From contig JAVGWX010000007.1 in assembly GCA_036924085.1 (NCBI GenBank), positions 101,822,236-101,886,235 of the forward strand: a stretch of DNA of 64,000 nucleotides. Direction: 5' to 3'. Below the pieces are notes generated by a model. It was given only the letters and a program-made list of their open reading frames with translations. It had not been told where the DNA came from and ran no database searches. A program made the position numbers and the translations under genes. The DNA is from Ariolimax columbianus. Its lineage: Eukaryota > Mollusca > Gastropoda > Stylommatophora > Arionidae. This document shows, piece after piece, positions 1,672 through 41,900 of this stretch (position 1 is its first letter; each line of letters opens with the position of its first letter).

Positions 1672-2460
1672 TTGTGTCTGAGGATACATGGGGCGAAGTT
1701 AGACAAGCAACTTCCATGGAAAAGTCACCAGGAAACTCTCCCTGGTGACCTCGCTGGCTGGTACAAGCTGGAAGCTAACAGCAGTATTCTACAAAAATGT
1801 CTATGCAGGCACAGTCAGGCCGGTATTGGAATATGGCATGTCAGTCTGGGCGACCGCGCCCAAAACAAACACAGAACGCTTAACAAGAGTCCAAAATACA
1901 GGCCTCAGATTAATCATGGGCGGAAGGGGGGTGTAGAGAGAGGGGGGATGAGGACCGATCCAGGCAATGCAGAAGCATACTAAACTAGGCTCCCTCGGCA
2001 GCGGGTGGGACGAGAATGTATTTGTACACAGCAAGATGCTAAAAGGCATGCCAAATCATCCTATGCAAGCCTAACTTCAAAATTTGACCAAAAAAAAACA
2101 CCAAAAACAAACACAAAACAACTAAAGAGAACCAGCTTTCTACACAAGGCAAAACACCTGCAGGGTCAGCATGAAAACCTTCTCCCAAATGGACACGCTG
2201 ACTGACTCTGATGAGTCTATTGTCTTGACAAAACTCTTAAAAACCATGGAAATCCCGGGGAAAAAGGAACATTTCCAGGCTATCCACCTAAAATCCCTAG
2301 CTCAGATGATGATTGAAGAAAAATACAATCATAAAAACTTGACACCTGCACACAATCAGCAGAGAGCGCAGTTAAGGATGGTGGAAAGGGGGGGGGGGTT
2401 TAAGATACAACAATACCACTTTGCTCGAAAAGAAAACGAGGTCTACCACCAACTCTCCAC
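1672..2460 (+). pseudogene. I/Jockey-like LINE copy A, ORF2 reverse-transcriptase C-terminus (broken)
   Basis: Decayed ORF2 of a non-LTR retrotransposon. The frame near 1745-1936 reads TVRPVLEYGMSVWATAP followed by RVQNTGLRLIMGG, the thumb/connection segment seen after the RT palm in I/Jockey-type elements (VRPvLEYg..vWa, VQN.alRlI). Downstream pieces in other frames (1985-2205, 2171-2464) continue with the linker that precedes RNase H, ending in VYHQLST. At least two frameshifts separate these pieces, and most of the 5' element, including the RT catalytic box, is absent. The YHQL motif matches YHQLSRPDQ in copy C (34258 on). The coding region is then interrupted by the minisatellite at 2461-3246 and resumes at 3247. 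Family assignment (RNase H-bearing I-like) rests on copies B and C, which carry the RNase H motif. Confidence 0.75.
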
Positions 2461-3246
2461 ATGAGACCAGGTGACAGATGAGATCAAGTGACAGGTGAGA
2501 CCAGGTGACAGGGAAACCACGTGACAGATGAGATCAAGTGACAGGTGAGACCAGGTGACAGGGAAACCACGTGACAGATGAGATCAAGTGACAGGTGAGA
2601 CCAGGTGACAGGGGAGACCAGGTGACAGATGAGATCAAGTGACAGGTGAGACCAGGTGACAGGGGAAACCAGGTGACAGATGAGATCAAGTGACAGGTGA
2701 GACCAGGTGACAGGGGAGACCAGGTGACAGGTGAGATCAGGTGACAGGTGAGATCAGGTGACAGGCGAGACTAGGTGACAAGAGGAACCAGGAGGCAGAT
2801 GAGATCAGGTGACAGGTGAGATCAGGTGACAGGTGAAACAAAGTGACAGGTAAGACCAGGTGACAGGTGAGATCAGGTGACAGGTGAGACCAACTCTCCA
2901 GCTGAGACCAGGTGACAGGTGAGACCAACTCTTTAGCTGAGACCAGGTGACAGGTGAGACCAACTCTCTAGCTGAGACCAGGTGAGAGGTGAGACCACGT
3001 GACAGGTGACAGGCGAGACTACGTGACAGGTGAGACCAGGAGACAAGTGAGACCAGGTGACAGGCGAGATCAGATGACAGACGAGACCCGGTGACAGGCG
3101 AGACCAGGTGACAGTCGAGACCAGGTGACAAGCGAGACCAGGTGACAGTCGAGACCAGGTGACAAGCGAGACAAGATGACAGGCGAGACCAGGTGACAGG
3201 CGAGACCAGATGACAGGCGAGACCAGGTGATAGGCGAGACCAGATG
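2461..3246. repeat. GACCAGGTGACAG minisatellite inside LINE copy A
   Basis: Roughly 16-34 bp interleaved units built on GACCAGGTGACAGGTGAGA, with variant blocks (AGATCAAGTG, GAAACCACGTG, GTCGAGACC). Around 2890-2990 units include CAACTCTCCAGCTGAGACC. That string resembles the LINE segment at the left junction (CAACTCTCCACATGAGACC, 2451) and the unexpanded segment in copy C (CAACTCTCCAGGCCAGACC, 34260). To the right, LINE coding sequence resumes (ATGATCATTCTCCAGCTATG). The array is therefore an expansion of LINE ORF2 sequence in place. Confidence 0.9.
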
Positions 3247-3411
3247 ATCATTCTCCAGCTATGCACAAGTCAAGACAGACTGAGATGTCATATGTACAAG
3301 TTCAAGATTGCCAATATAGACATTTGTGCCTGCGGCACAGCCCTCATGACATCAGAATACAATCTGGCAGTTCTGTGGGAAGAGCTGTCCGGAAGAGCTG
3401 TCCGGAAGAGC
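3247..3411 (+). pseudogene. LINE copy A, ORF2 C-terminal segment after the array
   Basis: The sequence after the minisatellite aligns with 34284-34460 in copy C. Both carry ATTCTCC, GCACA, a CATNTGTACAA core and CCTGCGGCACAG. Translated, this is the I-like C-terminus: an RLRTGH-like segment, then a CACGT zinc-knuckle-like segment. The last 30 bp hold 2.6 copies of GGAAGAGCTGTCC, next to which the CR1-like element inserted. Confidence 0.75.
3391..3411 (+). repeat. target-site duplication, left copy
   Basis: GGAAGAGCTGTCCGGAAGAG at the left edge of the CR1-like insertion corresponds, with one mismatch, to GGAAGAGCTGTCCGAAAGAG at 5251-5270 on the right edge. About 20 bp. The exact left limit is blurred because GGAAGAGCTGTCC is itself repeated. 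Confidence 0.8.
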
Positions 3412-3412
3412 T

Positions 3413-5152
3413 GCTCAGAGGATCAAGACTGACAGTAAAAGCTTCTTTTCTTATGTTAGAAATAAACAAAGAACGAAAGACAAAGTAGGCCCTCTCATAG
3501 ACAGTACAGAGAAAATAATAAGTGAGAATAGGGAGGCTGCTAATCTGCTCAATCAGTACTTTGGCACAGTCTTCACAAAGGAGGACTGCTCCGAGATCCC
3601 AGAGCCTATAGATATTTTTCAAAGAGACATGGATACAGCGGGATTAAGATCAATCTGTATTACAGAGGAAATGGTTTTTAAAAAATTGGAGGGGTTGAAA
3701 GTAAATAAATGTCCAGGTCAAGATGGTATTCACCCAAAATTGCTGTATGAAATTAGAAACCAACTAGCAAAACCATTGGCTATATTATGTTCTCAATCAC
3801 TTACAAAAGGGATTGTTCCACGGGATTGGAAAGATGCAGGAGTGATCCCCTTATTCAAAAAAGGCAAAAAATCAGATCCGGCAAATTATAGACCGGTGAG
3901 TTTAACGAGCATAGTCTGTAAATTGTTAGAGTCCCTAATCAAAGAAAACATTGTAATGCATTTAGAAAAATTGAATCTAATTAGAAATAGTCAGCTTGGG
4001 TTTACTAGAGGGAGATCATGCTTAACAAATCTATTAGAATTCATGGAGGAGGTTACTAAAATCATAGATAAAGGGGAGCCAGTGGATGTTATTTATCTAG
4101 ACTTTGCAAAGGCCTTTGATAGAGTACCTCATCAAAGATTATTTCGAAAGTTAAAATCACATGGAATAGGTGGCGAAGTTGCCAAATGGATTGAAAATTG
4201 GTTAACGGGAAGAAGGCAGAGGGTGGGCATAAATAAGGAGTACTCTGAGTGGAGTGAAGTGAAAAGTGGTGTGCCACAGGGCTCGGTTTTGGGACCAATT
4301 TTGTTCTTGATATATATAAATGATTTGGACATTGATATGAGATCTATGATTGCAAAATTTGCTGATGACACAAAACTATGCAGTAGTGTCTCATCTAAAG
4401 CGGAAGTGGATATATTGATGTCGGATTTAGATAAAATTCGAGAATGGTCTGTAAGCTGGCAAATGGAGTTTAATGTAGATAAATGTACAGTCATCCACAT
4501 GGGTAGATCCAATATGGAACATAATTACAGAATGGGAGAAAACAATATTAGAAAGATAGATAAGGAAAGGGACCTAGGGGTTATAATAGATCATACAGGA
4601 AAGGTGAGTGAGCAAGTTAAGGTAGCAGTGAAAAAGGCAAATGCAATGTTAGGTATGATAAAAAGAAATATTAAACATAAGAGCAAGGAAGTGATCGTCA
4701 AACTGTATAAAGCTTTAGTTAGACCTAGATTGGAGTACTGTGTACAGGTGTGGAGTCCTTATCATAGAGGGGACATAAACATGCTAGAAAGAATACAAAA
4801 AAGAGCGACAAAGATGATAGTGGGATTCCAGAATTACAGTTATGAGGAACGACTCAGAAAAACCGGCCTACAGTGTCTCGAAGAGAGAAGAATTCGCGGT
4901 GACTTAATACAGGTTTATAAGATGATCAGAGGAATCGATAAATTAGACTATAACAAGTTTTTTAAAATACAGCCACCTACAATAACATGAGGGCACAGCT
5001 ACAAGCTGATTAAAGAGAGGTCCAGATTAGATATTAGGAAATATTTTTTTAGTCAGAGAGTGGTGTCTGCTTGGAATGCATTGCCAGGGGAGGTAGTGGA
5101 GGCAGGGACAGTTAATGCATTTAAGAATAAACTGGATGCGCATAGATTTTAG
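3413..5152 (+). pseudogene. CR1-like ORF2: reverse transcriptase, near-intact with one late stop
   Basis: Reads the RNA template into cDNA in target-primed reverse transcription. The frame is open before the first ATG at 3629: upstream it reads FFSYVRNKQRTKDKVGPL, the usual CR1 linker, so that ATG is not the true start. The RT domain runs from about 3690 to 4420. It shows KCPGQDGIHPKLL, NYRPVSLTS, LGFTRGRSC, VIYLDFAKAFDRVPH (motif A), SGVPQGSVLGPILFLIYIND (motif B region) and AKFADDTKLC (motif C, FADD in place of YADD). Downstream come VRPRLEYCVQVWSP and, after a TGA at 4988-4990, the CR1 C-terminal signature [20 protein letters not shown], ending with TAG at 5150-5152. The minus-strand copy has AAA-type sequence at the TGA position, so the stop is a private mutation. 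The palm residues look intact, but there is no EN domain or ORF1. Confidence 0.93.
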
Positions 5153-5218
5153 AGCAAGGTGATGTAAATGTAACTGGTTGTATACAAACTCTGCAGGGTC
5201 TTCTAAACCAGTATAAAG

Positions 5219-5250
5219 ATGTTAAGTTAAGTTAAGTTAAGTTAAGTTAA
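5219..5250 (+). repeat. GTTAA microsatellite 3' tail of the CR1-like LINE
   Basis: Six or so GTTAA units close the element. Copy 2 has a shorter version (7638-7653) and the minus-strand copy has its reverse complement (19052-19066). Short 3' microsatellite tails instead of poly(A) are typical of CR1/L2-group elements. Confidence 0.9.
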
Positions 5251-5350
5251 GGAAGAGCTGTCCGAAAGAGCATCAGCCTTAAGTCAACTGATACCCTCGA
5301 CGTGATAATTGAAGGCGAGGAATGAAGACGAGCGAGGAAGAAGAAGATAC
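5251..5350 (+). pseudogene. I-like LINE copy A, 3' terminal segment and right target-site duplication
   Basis: After the CR1-like insertion the older host element continues. GAAGAGCTGTCCGAAAGAGC ... ATTGAAGGCGAGGAATGAAG ... CGAGGAAGAAGAAGATA aligns with the end of copy C (34470-34566: GAGAAGCTGTACGGAAGCG ... ATTGAAGTTGAGTTCTGAAG ... CGAGGAAGAAGAAGAAGAT). The aligned TGAAG marks the ORF2 stop, and the GAAGAAGAA run is the 3' tail. Confidence 0.8.
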
Positions 5351-5403
5351 AAAAATGGGAAAATAACCTATAGGTCTTTTTTTACTGGGAAGATTTTTCT
5401 CCG

Positions 5404-5751
5404 GTGTTAGAGTCTATGGCGCTTCTACAGGCACTAAGAATGTTCTCCAGATCAGACTACCAACTCAGATTGCAGATCACTACTAGAAGCAATACACAAC
5501 ACCAGAGAGGAACAAATGCTGAGGGAAATAAGATCCGAGCACAACTTAATCCAAAAAACATCAATAGTTGCTCTTCATTGGCTGTTTTCCCATTGTGGAA
5601 TCACAGGGAATGAGAGAGCTGATGCCCAAAGCAGGTGACAAGATGGAGCAGCCTATTCACGCAGTGTCTTACCAAGAAGGAAAAACTATCATCCAAAATC
5701 AGTACCTCAAAATGAAAGCAAGGCATGAAAGTGAGCAATAGACCTGACCCA
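5404..5751 (+). pseudogene. I-like LINE copy B, RNase H segment (frameshifted)
   Basis: The frame at 5404 reads ESMALLQAL, the helix of LINE RNase H domains around the second catalytic acidic residue (DSlSLLqAL). The E in place of D-S, or a lost D, suggests decay. A second frame near 5570-5640 reads LHWLFSHCGITGNERADAQ, the RNase H HxxxxGxxGNExAD block with the catalytic aspartate. Frameshifts and stops lie between them, so the product is dead. It runs straight into the 26-bp array at the position where copy C encodes the HQLSRPDQ segment. Confidence 0.75.
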
Positions 5752-6064
5752 ATCCATCAGCTCTACAGATACCAACAAACCATCAGCGCTACAGACACCA
5801 ACAAACCAGCAGCTCTACAGATACCAACAAACCATCAGCTCTACAGACACCAACAAACCATCAGCTCTACAGACACCAACAAACCATCAGCTCTACAGAC
5901 ACCAACAAACCATCAGCTCTACAGACACCAACAAACCATCAGCTCTACAGACACCAACAAACCATCAGCTCTACAGACACCAACAAACCATCAGCTCTAC
6001 TGATACCAACAAACCATCAGCTCTACAGACACCAACAAACCATCAGCTCTACAGACACCAACAA
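5752..6064. repeat. 26-bp minisatellite inside LINE copy B
   Basis: About 12 near-identical units of 26 bp containing CATCAGCTCTACAGACACCA then ACAAAC. In the LINE frame the unit reads HQLYRHQQT, equivalent to the HQLSRPDQ segment of copy C. To the right, LINE sequence resumes as TTTCTCGCCTGAAAAAGGCC, i.e. SRLKTGH for the family's RLRTGH. The array thus grew in place from ORF2 codons. The first units are more diverged (GATACC, CAGCGCTACAG), as expected for array edges. Confidence 0.93.
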
Positions 6065-6351
6065 ACTTCCATTTCTCGCCTGAAAAAGGCCACTGTAGAC
6101 CATTGGGTCACTTACATCGGTTCAAGATATCACACACAAGTGAGTGCCCATGTGGAGCCGGAGTCAGACCCCTGAATACATCCTATAGGGCTTCCAAATT
6201 TACTCAAGATATCACACACAAGTGAGTGCCCATGTGGAGCCTACTTACCCTTTCAGGGTTTGGTAGTGCGAGATTGAGAATGAACGAAGAAGAAGAAGAA
6301 GAAGAAGAAGAAGAAGAAGAAGAAGAAGAAGAAGAAGAAGAAGAAGAAGAA
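6065..6351 (+). mobile_element. LINE copy B, 3' end with GAA tail
   Basis: Contains the end of the RLRTGH segment and a CPCGAG zinc-knuckle-like segment (GAGTGCCCATGTGGAGCC). A short internal duplication places ATATCACACACAAGTGAGTG at 6128 and again at 6209. The 3' terminus reads CCTTTCAGGGTTTGGTAGTG then GAGATTGAGAATGAACGAAG, followed by about 22 perfect GAA triplets. This terminus is the likely ancestor of the 31-bp array unit at 20024-23628. Confidence 0.8.
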
Positions 6352-20023: not shown

Positions 20024-23000
20024 CCCTGTTCAGGGCTTGGTAGCGGGAGATTGAGAACGTTCAGGGCTTGGTAGCGGGAGATTGAGAACGTTCAGGGCTT
20101 GGTAGCGGGAGATTGAGAACGTTCAGGGCTTGGTAGCGGGAGATTGAGAACGTTCAGGGCTTGGTAGCGATAGATTGAGAACGTTCAGGGCTTTGTAGCG
20201 GGAGATTGAGAACGTTCAGGGCTTGGTAGCGGGAGATTGAGAACGTTCAGGGCTTGGTAGCGGGAGATTGAGAACGTTCAGGGCTTGGTAGCGGGAGATT
20301 GAGAACGTTCAGGGCTTGGTAGCGGGAGATTGAGAATGTTCAGGGCTTGGTAGCGGAAGATGGAGAACGTTCAGGGCTTGGTAGCGAGAGAGATTGAGAA
20401 CGTTCAGGGCTTGGTAGCGAGAGATTGAGAACGTTCAGGGCTTGGTAGCGGGAGATTGAGAACGTTCAGGACTTGGTAGCGGGAGATCGAGAACGTTCAG
20501 GGCTTGGTAGCGGGAGATTGAGAATGTTCAGGGCTTGGTAGCGGAAGATTGAGAACGTTCAGGGCTTGGTAGCGAGAGAGATTGAGAACGTTCAGGGCTT
20601 GGTAGCGAGAGATTGAGAACGTTCAGGGCTTGGTAGCGGGAGATTGAGAGCGTTTAGGGCTTGGTAGCTGGAAATTGAGAACGTTCAGCGCTTGGTAGCG
20701 GGAGATTGAGAACGTTCAAGGCTTGGTAGCGGAGGATTGAGGACGTTCAGGGCTTGGTAGCGAGAGATTGAGAACGTTCAGGGCTTGGTAGTGGGAGATT
20801 GAGAACGTTCAGGGCTTGGTAGCGGAAGATTGAGAACGTTCAGGGCTTGGTAGCGGGAGATTGAGAACGTTTAGGGCTTGGTAGCGGGAGATTGAGAACG
20901 TTCAGGGCTTGGTAGCGGGAGATTGAGAACGTTCAGGGCTTGGTAGCGGGAGATTGAGAACGTTCAGGGCTTGGTAGCGGGAGATTGAGAACGTTCAGGG
21001 CTTGGTAGAGGGAGATTGAGAACGTTAAGGGCTTGGTAGCGGGAGATTGAGAACGTTCAGGGCTTGGTAGCGGGAGATTGAGAACGTTTAGGGCTTGGTA
21101 GCGGGAGATTGAGAACGTTCAGGGCTTGGTAGCGGGAGATTGAGAACGTTCAGGGCTTGGTAGTGGGAGATTGAGAACGTTTAGGGCTTGGTAGCGGGAG
21201 ATTGAGAACGTTTAGGGCTTGGTAGCGGGAGATTGAGAACGTTCAAGGCTTGGTAGCGGGAGATTGAGAACGTTCAGGGCTTGGTAGCGGGAGATTGAGA
21301 ACGTTCAGGGCTTGGTAGCGGGAGATTGAGAACGTTCAGGGCTTGGTAGCGGGAGATTGAGAATGTTCAGGGCTTGGTAGCGGGAGATTGAGAACGTTCA
21401 GGGCTTGGTAGCGGGAGATTAAGAACGTTTAGGGCTTGGTAGCGGGAGATTGAGAACGTTCAGGGCTTGGTAGCGGGAGAATGAGAACGTTCATGGCTTG
21501 GTAGCGGGAGATTGAGAACGTTCAGGGCTTGGTAGCGAGAGAGATTGAGAACGTTCAGGGCTTGGTAGCGGGAGATTGAGAACGTTCAGGGCTTGGTAGC
21601 GGGAGATTGAGAACGTTCAGGGCTTGGTAGCGGGAGATTCAGAACGTTCAGGGCTTTGTAGCGGGAGATTGAGAACGTTCAGGTCTTGGTAGCGGGAGAT
21701 TGAGAACGTTCAGGGCTTGGTAGCGGGAGATTGAGAACGTTCAGGGCTTGGTAGCGGGAGATTGAAAACGTTCAGCGCTTGGTAGTGGAAGATTGAAAAC
21801 GTTCAGCGCTTGGTAGGGGGAGATTGAGAACGTTCAGGGCTTGGTAGCGGGAGATTGAGAACGTTCAGGGCTTGGTAGCGGGAGATTGAAAACGTGCAGC
21901 GCTTGGTAGCGGGAGATTGAAAACGTTCAAGGCTTGGTAGCGGGAGATTGAAAACGTTCAGGGCTTGGTAGCGGGAGATTAAGGACGTTCAGGGCTTGGT
22001 AGCGGGAGATTGAGAACGTTCAAGGCTTGGTAGCGGGAGATTGAAAACGTTCAGGGCTTGGTAGTGGGAGATTGAGAACGTTCAGGGCTTGGTAGCAGGA
22101 GATTGAGAACGTTCAGGGCTTGGTAGCGGGAGATTGAGAACGTTCAGGGCTTGGTAGCGGGAGAATGAGAACGTTCAGGGCTTGGTAGCGAGAGAGATTG
22201 AGAACGTTCAGGGCTTGGTAGCGGGAGATTGAGAACGTTCAGGGCTTGGTAGCGGGAGATTCAGAACGTTCAGGGCTTTGTAGCGGGAGATTGAGAACGT
22301 TCAGGTCTTGGTAGCGGGAGATTGAGAACGTTCAGGGCTTGGTAGCGAGAGATTGAGAACGTTCAGGGCTTGGTAGCGGGAGATTGAAAACGTTCAGCGC
22401 TTGGTAGTGGGAGATTGAAAACGTTCAGCGCTTGGTAGTGGGAGATTGAGAACGTTCAGGGCTTGGTAGCGGGAGATTGAGAACGTTCAGGGCTTGGTAG
22501 CGGGAGATTGAGAACGTTCAGGGCTTTGTAGCGGGAGATTGAAAACGTTCAGCGCTTGGTAGCGGGAGATTGAAAACGTTCAAGGCTTGGTAGCGGGAGA
22601 TTGAGGACGTTCAGGGCTTGGTAGCGGGAGATTAAGGACGTTCAGGGCATGGTAGCGGGAGATTGAGAACGTTTAGGGCTTGGTAGTGGGAGATTGAGAA
22701 CGTTCAGGGCTTGGTAGCGGGAGATTGAGAACGTTCAGGGCTTGGTAGCGGGAGATTGAGAACGTTAAGGGCTTGGTAGCGGGAGATTGAGAACGTTCAG
22801 GGCTTGGTAGCGGGAGATTGAGAACGTTCAGGGCTTGGTAGCGGGAGAATGAGAACGTTCAGGGCTTGGTAGCGGGAGATTGAGAACGTTCAGGGCTTGG
22901 TAGCGAGAGAGATTGAGAACGTTCAGGGCTTGGTAGCGGGAGATTGTGAACGTTCAGGGCTTGGTAGCGGGAGATTGAGAACGTTCAGGGCTTGGTAGCG

Positions 23001-23628
23001 GGAGATTCAGAACGTTCAGGGCTTTGTAGCGGGAGATTGAGAACGTTCAGGTCTTGGTAGCGTGAGATTGAGAACGTTCAGGGCTTGGTAGTGGGAGATT
23101 GAAAACGTTCAGCGCTTGGTAGTGGGAGATTGAGAACGTTCAGGGCTTGGTAGCGGGAGATTGAGAACGTTCAGGGCTTGGTAGCGGGAGATTGAGAACG
23201 TTCAGGGCTTGGTAGCGGGAGATTGAGAACGTTCTGGGCTTGGTAGCGGGAGATTGAGAACGTTCAGGGCTTGGTAGTGGGAGATTGAGAACGTTCAGGG
23301 CTTGGTAGCGGGAGATTGAGAACGTTCAGGGCTTGGTAGCGGGAGATTGAAAACGTTCAGCGCTTGGTAGCGGGAGATTGAAAACGTTCAAGGCTTGGTA
23401 GCGGGAGATTGATGACGTTCAGGGCTTGGTAGCGGGAGATTAAGGACGTTCAGGGCTTGGTAGCGGGAGATTGAGAACGTTCAAGGCTTGGTAGCGGGAG
23501 ATTGAAAACGTTCAGGGCTTGGTAGTGGGAGATTGAGAACGTTCAGGGCTTGGTAGAGGGAGATTGAGAACGTTCAGGGCTTGGTAGAGGGAGATTGAGA
23601 ACGTTCAGGGCTTGGTAGCGAGAGTGAG
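20024..23628. repeat. 31-bp minisatellite, about 116 copies (3.6 kb)
   Basis: Unit is GTTCAGGGCTTGGTAGCGGG + AGATTGAGAAC. Frequent variants: AGCGCTTGG, GAAAACG, AAGGACG, TTTAGGG, and a 33-bp form with GAGAGAGATTG. Blocks of variants recur (for example the order GAGAGAGATTG, CAGAACG, GGCTTTGTAGC, GGTCTTGG near 21530-21700, 22190-22320 and 22900-23060), which shows segmental duplication of multi-unit blocks. It ends in GAGAGTGAGAGAACGAACGC, close to the LINE tail form GAACGAAG. Confidence 0.98.
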
Positions 23629-33954: not shown

Positions 33955-34566
33955 AAATTCATGTCATTCATACTCTGTCAATCACCCAAGAACCAGCACA
34001 AAAATGAACTCTGTGCTCTGGCAGACTCGCTCGAACGCCTGTCCCAGTGCTTCCAAAAAAAAGCACAGTCCAGTGGATACCAGCCCACTGTAGCATTCCA
34101 GGCAACGAGGAGGCACACAGACTCGCCAGAGAGGGAGGAATGCTGCAGCAGAGTGATACAGAAATCACATACAATGAGACAAAAGCATTCATCAGGGCAA
34201 CGTACAGTGTAAAATGGAAAAATGACCACCCTGGCCACATGGAAAACGATGCCTACCATCAACTCTCCAGGCCAGACCAGGTGATAATTCTCCGGCTACG
34301 CACAGGTCACAACAGACTTAGATGCCATCTGTACAACAAGTTAAAGATTGGCCCTACAGACCTTTGTGCCTGCGGCACAGTCCCCATGAAGGCAGAATAT
34401 ATTTTGCAGTCCTGTCCACTGTATACCGACAAAAGAAGTAGCATTTGGCAACAGCCAGTGTCCTTCCACGAGAAGCTGTACGGAAGCGTACATACAATTG
34501 AGTCGACCTCTGCCTTCGTTAGAGTCATTGAAGTTGAGTTCTGAAGATGAACGAGGAAGAAGAAGA
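33955..34566 (+). pseudogene. I-like LINE copy C: RNase H end and ORF2 C-terminus, array-free
   Basis: The frame at 34047-34544 reads VQWIPAHCSIPGNEEAHRLA, the RNase H HCxIPGNExA(D/H) block; the usual catalytic D is H here. A linker with YHQLSRPDQVIILRLRTGHN follows, then CACGTVPMKAEYILQSCPLY (zinc-knuckle-like) and the terminus VIEVEF with TGA at 34542-34544. The RNase H start at 33955-34046 is in another frame. The 3' tail is GAGGAAGAAGAAGAAGAT. Its YHQLSRPDQ segment is single-copy, which makes this the reference for the arrays in copies A and B. Confidence 0.85.
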
Positions 34567-34865
34567 AGATACCCTGTCAATCACATATTTTAAATATTTG
34601 ATAGAAAGCTCTAAAATCAGTACATATCTGACCAAGACTGAAAGAGTATTGTAGAAACACTTAGTCGACATCTGATGTCAAGACTGAAAGAGCGTTCTAG
34701 AAGCACTTCCTGCATGTCTGATATGAAAAGAAAGATGTAAACAACTATTTTCCCAAGTCTCAGAAAAGAATGAATAAGAAAAGGATGAAGAAGACCCTCT
34801 ATAGAAAATATCGTTTACATTAGATAACACTAAAGACACATTTTTACCCCCTTTTCCGGTTATTT

Positions 34866-40350: not shown

Positions 40351-41348
40351 TCATTTACAACTGCATTCTTCGACAGCCATGTCTTGGTAGTTCTTGAGGA
40401 CCGTGCGTCCCTTCTCGTTCTTGTAGAGCATGGAGATTGGAGACATTTTTGTGGGAACACAGCAGACCATAGGCACAGCACTGGGGTCCACCTTGTACAC
40501 GCGAGCTTGCAGCATGGCGTGGTTAGAGGCTTTGGTGAAATGTGGCAACGGCGCCATACAGTCTCCGTGGCAATAGTAGGCACTGTACCCTGTCGGGGCA
40601 ACAATCCAGTCGTCCCAGCCTACATCGTTAAAGTCTACATAGAGAGCATGTCTTTGGCAGATGTTTTTGTTGCCTTTCTTCTTTCTTCTTCTCTTTTTCT
40701 TTTTATTTTTTCTGCGGTTTCTTTTGTTATTTTTGCTATCGTCCTCGGAAGTCTGGCGTCTTCTTCGCTTTAACCTTGTCAATCTTTTTGACCTGGACGA
40801 TGAAGATGTCGCTGACAAAGGCGATGATCCATCGTTCGTGTAAGTGACCAACAATGGTCTCTGGAGCGCCCACTCTCTGTCCGGTAAGTGGACCGCTCTG
40901 CGTAGGCGAATATGGTTATCTGTTGATAATGTTGGCTTCTTGCCTGTCAGCCGGACTTCCAGCCCGTGGTTGTGGCTGTCTCCACGCTTCCATCTTAATA
41001 CTGCTGGGCGGATGTCAAAACTGAGCCAGGTGGAGTTGCCGCGAGACACGATCCGAGTGTCCAGCAGCCTGGAGATGGTGTCACCGTCGCCAGAGTTAGG
41101 CCTCATTATTTCATGTACCTCAACACGAAGCGGTGGCCCGTCTCTTGAGGTCAAACTCTGTGCCTGCTCGACAGCGCCTTGGCTAGGCTCCGGAGACGTC
41201 GGACTGCTGCCCGAACTCCCCGTTTCTGTCGCAGTATCAACGAAGATTCGAAGTTCAGCTCCCGCTAGTGTCTCGTGGTCAGGGATGGTGCTGATGTCAA
41301 AGACAGCCCTGGAGCACAGTGGAGGCTGACAGGAACTACTTTCTGCAT
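40351..41348 (-). CDS. bmp2/4: BMP2/4 (Dpp)-type TGF-beta ligand, last coding exon
   Basis: Secreted dimeric morphogen that signals through type I/II Ser/Thr kinase receptors and Smads. The exon encodes the end of the prodomain (FDISTIPDHETLAGAELRIF, VEVHEIMRP, SRLLDTRIVSRGNSTWLSFD) and a cleavage region with RSKR and KRRRR sites. A 32-residue basic stretch follows (17 Lys/Arg), then a 102-residue cystine-knot domain starting CQRHALYVDFNDVGWDDWIV. All seven knot cysteines are present (C, YYCHGDC, VCC, EECSCK), including the one for the interchain bond. GYSAYYCHGDC and VLKNYQDM place it with BMP2/4 and not BMP5-8. Codons upstream of 41348 are intron read-through: the acceptor TTTATTTTTCAG lies there, in phase 1. 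The upstream coding exon(s), with signal peptide and first half of the prodomain, are not seen. Oddities: the usual NxT glycosylation site before NHA is lost (FTKASNHA) and the end is ECSCK. No stop or frameshift, so probably functional. Confidence 0.95.
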
Positions 41349-41360
41349 CTGAAAAATAAA
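41349..41360 (-). promoter_or_regulatory. splice acceptor of the BMP2/4-like exon
   Basis: On the minus strand TTTATTTTTCAG immediately precedes ATGCAGAAAG. The pyrimidine tract is short but clear. The intron interrupts a codon after its first base (phase 1). Confidence 0.75.
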
Positions 41361-41493
41361 GACATAGCGATGCGTTAGACATGTTGTGAGGGAGCAACAA
41401 ATACGACCTGCATACCGAGATATTTATGTCTGACAACAACCTTTTGTTAACGCTGAACGCTTGCCGTTCCTGTTTGTGGCCAGCAGCGCTACT

Positions 41494-41900
41494 AAAGGCG
41501 ATCTCATCCAGCCACTGCCATCAGAGATGAAGAGCCGTTGTCCCGCTTCAAATGGGATAAACGGTAACAAACGGTAAAGGCGATCTCATCCAGCCACTGC
41601 CATCAGAGATGAAGAGCCGTTGTCCCTCTTTAAATGGGATATACGGTAACAAACGGTAAAGGCGATCTCATCCAGCCACTGCCATCAGAGATGAAGAGCC
41701 GTTGTCCCGCTTCAAATGGGATATACGGTAACAAACGGTAAAGGCGATCTCATCCAGCCACTGCCATCAGAGATGAAGAGCCGTTGTCCCTCTTTAAATG
41801 GCATATACGGTAACAAACGGTAAAGGCGATCTCATCCAGCCACTGCCATCAGAGAGGAAGAGCCGTTGTCCCTCTTTAAATGGGATATACGGTAACAGCA
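41494..41900. repeat. 82-bp tandem repeat, 5 copies, in the BMP intron
   Basis: Unit contains GGCGATCTCATCCAGCCACT + GCCATCAGAGATGAAGAGCC + GTTGTCC and ends in ATACGGTAACAAACGGTAA. CGCTTCAAATGGG and CTCTTTAAATGGG forms alternate. It begins about 145 bp upstream (on the gene strand) of the acceptor. Confidence 0.95.

Follow-up and report, generated by a model that had tools for sequence, protein, structure and literature searches.

Tandem arrays recur at one ORF2 stretch of a LINE in Ariolimax columbianus, a real site but not a clearly special one

Two LINE copies in the window analysed here, a 64,000-nucleotide stretch of the genome of the mollusc Ariolimax columbianus, break into minisatellites at the same codons of ORF2, HQL-x-R-x-x-Q (the HQL site; Table 1). 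These arrays probably reflect ordinary minisatellite birth inside dead copies of the LINE, in a genome rich in repeats. The HQL codons would be one of several array-making stretches, mildly favoured at most: arrays do recur there, yet another stretch of the element makes them nearly as often. This reading rests on the element-born unit and in-register flanks of array A, on the several junctions found at the site and on the several positions of the element at which arrays start. The breaks at the HQL-x-R codons of copies A and B, with the element continuing beyond each array, had been proposed in the original prediction and are confirmed by TRF, by alignments of copy A to copy C and, for copy B, by protein reading by eye; the proposed single-copy state of copy C at the site is confirmed as well. 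'I-like' was the label of that prediction, and membership of the I superfamily is putative.

Table 1. LINE copies and LINE-born arrays of the window, with positions counted from its first letter
Feature	Position	Strand	Basis
Copy A, ORF2 upstream of the array (linker, RNase H start)	1740-2461	+	Last 43 bases align with copy C; remainder protein by eye
Array A, 17-bp unit, about 46 copies	2462-3247	+	TRF; unit listing; unit verbatim in family majority
Copy A, resumption past the array	3248-3413	+	3232-3376 aligned with 34269-34415
CR1-like LINE inside copy A	3414-5249 (approximate ends)	+	RVT_1, E 2.2e-35; flanking 13-bp word, by eye
Copy A, tail with GAA repeats at its end	5250-5335	+	By eye
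Copy B, RNase H-like part preceding the array	5400-5749	+	Protein by eye, two frames
Array B, 26-bp unit, about 12 copies	5750-6066	+	TRF; unit listing
Copy B, resumption through to the GAA tail	6067-6351	+	GHCRPLGH...CPCG by eye; GAA run 6286-6351
Third LINE-born array, 31-bp unit, 116 copies, 3.6 kb	20028-23624	+	Element 3′ end, score 43
Copy C, single-copy at the HQL site (YHQLSRPDQVIILRLRTGH)	33975-34580	+	150 relatives scored in the genome, identity from 100% down to 80%

Array A lies within ORF2 of its copy and is enclosed by the element. The left flank (2432-2474) aligns with copy C at 34242-34284 and the right flank (3232-3376) with 34269-34415 at about 80% identity, so copy A breaks and resumes at the same codons. 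The unit at the right end of the array, CAGGCGAGACCAGGTGA, is contained without a mismatch in the majority sequence of 30 genomic copies, which reads CCATCAACTCTCCAGGCGAGACCAGGTGATAATTCTCC at the HQL site; array A was therefore born from the element. Its inner units retain CCAACTCTCCAGCTGAGACCAGGTGA, close to the adjacent native stretch, and the score of its unit against the copy C segment was reached by none of 1,000 shuffles. That the arrays are instead unrelated satellites, joined by chance to pieces of LINE, is a thought invited by the window itself, more than half of which is tandem repeat (33,741 of 64,000 bases, in 73 merged arrays), but a unit made of element sequence and an element that resumes in register rule this out for practical purposes in the case of array A, and we hold it to be very improbable for the arrays in general. 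By eye, most of RNase H seems to be absent from copy A just upstream of the array, through a deletion before YHQLS. The CR1-like insertion in the same copy has the 13-bp word GGAAGAGCTGTCC on either side (3378-3413 and 5250-5262, by eye); on one side the word stands nearly three times, a small tandem doubling at the insertion site.

Copy B is of a diverged lineage relative to copy C, the two giving no blastn match at E 1e-3. Their homology is read from the array unit, the downstream pattern GHCRPLGH...CPCG and the RNase H-like stretch upstream, the protein patterns being recognized by eye. The unit of array B, CCATCAGCTCTACAGACACCAACAAA, resembles the HQL stretch of the element at its start, its score against the copy C segment was reached by 5 of 1,000 shuffles, and its frame (HQLYRHQQT) differs from the frame of copy B downstream. 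Among the 15 best-scoring array units against copy C, the rows of A (24) and B (22) lead, and the next unrelated array unit scores 20, little below B. Because the B lineage is without a close reference, the case for an element origin is weaker for array B than for array A, and the case against a chance-joined satellite is likewise the weaker one there.

The family to which copy C belongs was followed through a single assembly (2,294,143,704 bases, 401 contigs). Thirty genomic copies, C included, are about 90% alike, with variable 5′ truncation points and GAA repeats at the end. Copy C itself matches the RNase H domain PF00075 at E 0.0021, below the gathering score, and the domain is present in many relatives of the LINE protein. 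The few relatives with names come from the molluscs Gigantopelta, Littorina, Bradybaena and Mercenaria; the viral contigs searched contained no protein relative and the prokaryote contigs searched three weak ones. None of the 88 aligned protein relatives carries an insertion inside HQLxRxxQ (in one of them, P0070, 8 residues are added at some distance upstream), which says little about dead copies because these relatives are open frames.

Arrays at the HQL site recur across the genome. The original prediction held that arrays A and B were made separately from one stretch of ORF2, and this part of it is strengthened by further genomic loci with other junctions: all told, nine loci (A, B, L038 and L044-L049) with about seven junction types carry arrays or, in one case, a small doubling at the site, and the lineages of B, L047 and L048 differ from that of C. 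The element lies on both sides of the array in A, L044 and L048 by alignment, and in B by protein reading only. L044 repeats the anatomy of array A: about 250 bp of element lead into a 1-kb array built from 26-bp units, beyond which the element runs on for about 300 bp, starting at the site. L048 (G000:C17:2415600-2417000) holds two arrays in a single LINE copy, one of 43 bp at the HQL site and one of 40 bp at RNase H codons. L038, L045, L046 and L047 have the element on one side within the stretch examined, and L049, located by a word other than CAACTCTCCAG, is a doubling of 25 bp in a copy that is whole apart from it. Elsewhere in ORF2, a 41-bp array (L051) has the element on either side; three further loci (L050, L052, L053) gave no alignment to the element.

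Three of the site loci, L044, L045 and L046, lie on different contigs and share one 26-bp junction in which GGTGA stands next to CCAAC; they may go back to one common founder. Extended to all the arrays, the idea would be that a founder element with a short doubling at the site was spread by retrotransposition and that each copy later expanded independently. We think this improbable: the junctions of A, B, L038, L047, L048 and L049 differ, and the exact-word search gives only three loci with a common junction, whereas a spreading founder predicts many doubled copies.

How often the site makes arrays was counted by searching the whole genome for the word CAACTCTCCAG occurring twice within 14-44 bp. 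There were 81 matches against 88 for the reversed pattern, and the raw count thus holds no excess. Assigned to loci by eye, the 81 matches fall into 17 loci, five of which are element-derived by a unit test in which array units were compared with the 30 copies (60 shuffles per locus). L047 is a sixth element-derived site locus by its flank only; its unit failed the test, 1 of 60 shuffles reaching its score. A pair of AGACCAGGTGA, a word common to unrelated arrays, gave 416 matches against 166 for its reversal, and among the matches listed (100 of 416) three loci are element-derived by eye, array A being one.

Control words with conservation like that of the site word (22 to 28 of 30 copies) place these counts in context. 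The word TGGATACCAGC, about 195 bp upstream of the site, yielded 4 element-derived loci out of 15, TTTGGCAACAG 1 out of 2 and CCAGAGAGGGA 0 out of 15. The TGATACAGAAA pair had 321 matches against 28 reversed, with 0 of 20 loci element-derived among the matches listed (100 of 321); ACAAGTTCAAG stands outside the comparison. Over the four completely listed words, a set that leaves out TGATACAGAAA, five of the ten element-derived loci are at the site (binomial P 0.08, uncorrected for word copy number and for the site having been chosen as striking). The check proposed with the original prediction, a map of array starts over the genomic copies, was run on part of the copies, and in it the site leads. 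This lead, 5 or 6 loci against 4, 1 and 0 in raw locus counts rather than per word copy, is the counter-point to our preferred reading of ordinary minisatellite birth. The site word occurs 4,583 times in the genome against 742 for its reversal, and several array-bearing copies keep it intact where the control words are mutated (in part since the copies were found by the site word), so that its wider conservation may explain part of the lead.

The original prediction went further and suggested that HQL-x-R-x-x-Q is an intrinsic nucleation site, at which tandem doubling starts much more often than in the remainder of the element. The spread of the nine loci over about seven junction types and more than one lineage argues for this, as do the 5 of 17 loci of the site word (6 with flank evidence) against 1 of 2 and 0 of 15 for the controls TTTGGCAACAG and CCAGAGAGGGA. 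The rate at TGGATACCAGC, the uncorrected P value and the level raw pair count argue against it, as does the third LINE-born array of the window, which stems from the 3′ end of the element: it scores 43 against 6066-6285, the 3′ end of copy B, a score reached by 0 of 200 shuffles. Nucleation in this intrinsic sense is accordingly not established, and we regard it as doubtful. Were a coding stretch of about 30 bp repeatedly to start arrays in dead copies from more than one lineage, which strikes us as rather unlikely, the LINE would supply its host genome with minisatellites that always start at one codon position. In a random sample of the genome, made up of the first 14 of 175 10-kb stretches drawn from parts of 25 contigs, four old element matches were uninterrupted at the site where they covered it, too few for a distribution. 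The array at 20028-23624 abuts a minus-strand CR1-like copy, by eye.

A structural or repeat feature singling out the HQL site was looked for and not found. Folding of 50-nt windows in 8 copies gave a z of -0.55 for the site, an ordinary value; 20 bp upstream z was -1.57, and the strongest value, -3.83, fell about 200 bp upstream. Exact 6-bp direct repeats show no rise at the site. An imperfect 11-bp repeat pair does lie there in 16 of 28 copies, the pair whose TCTCC repeats, 25 bp apart, flank the 25-bp doubling of L049. Eight other such pairs in the element occur in as many copies or more; the site is thus not set apart by its direct repeats, a further point against nucleation there. Most other junctions have little or no direct repeat.

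Ordinary minisatellite birth, the reading we favour, would thus have run as follows. Arrays A and B would have arisen after insertion, in dead, 5′-truncated copies of an abundant RNase H-bearing LINE. We infer the first step, since most site junctions show no long direct repeat: slippage or misaligned repair would have doubled a stretch in place, sometimes between short imperfect direct repeats. The doubled stretch would then have lengthened by the usual growth of minisatellites, tandem arrays being frequent in this genome.

That transposable elements give birth to minisatellites is already well described. Kelly (1994) reportedly placed two mouse minisatellites within MaLR LTRs, a case in which copies of one element likewise gave rise to two minisatellites, there in an LTR and here in ORF2. 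For human minisatellites derived from transposable elements, the account in PMC3389668 reports tandem duplication hotspots inside AluS and LTR12. As in that account, the present arrays have units of 10-100 bp made of element sequence, mostly formed when single copies inserted or later, and certain stretches are affected more often than others; the human elements it treats are a SINE and an LTR, whereas ours is a coding stretch of an RNase H-bearing LINE in a mollusc, and where it reports a preference we have a hotspot candidate only. In the model of Haber and Louis 1998, as described in PMC6947457, minisatellites are born between short direct repeats; the L049 doubling bounded by TCTCC repeats resembles this, and most other junctions here, with little or no repeat, do not.

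Whether preferred parts of transposable elements make tandem repeats is called unsettled in a review, section 2.2 of which sees no conclusive evidence for it (PMC9659126), and the papers listed by the literature searches included none that treats such a site in a comparable LINE. The preference would become countable in a genome that holds the present LINE in thousands of copies and is very dense in arrays; in the count so far, the HQL site recurs and a second stretch recurs nearly as often.

In the 14 random stretches, tandem repeats take up 39,204 of 140,000 bases, and one stretch (L059, G000:C15:17630700-17640699) is tandem repeat from end to end. Among the TGATACAGAAA matches listed (100 of 321), many separate arrays have TGATACAGAAA followed by units like AGCTCTAGAA, as if another dispersed repeat seeded minisatellites in the same way. 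Amid the arrays of the window, an open frame on the minus strand (40351-41520) belongs to a gene for a ligand of the TGF-beta family (TGF_beta E 2.8e-35, propeptide E 1.9e-20), presumably of the BMP2/4 type.
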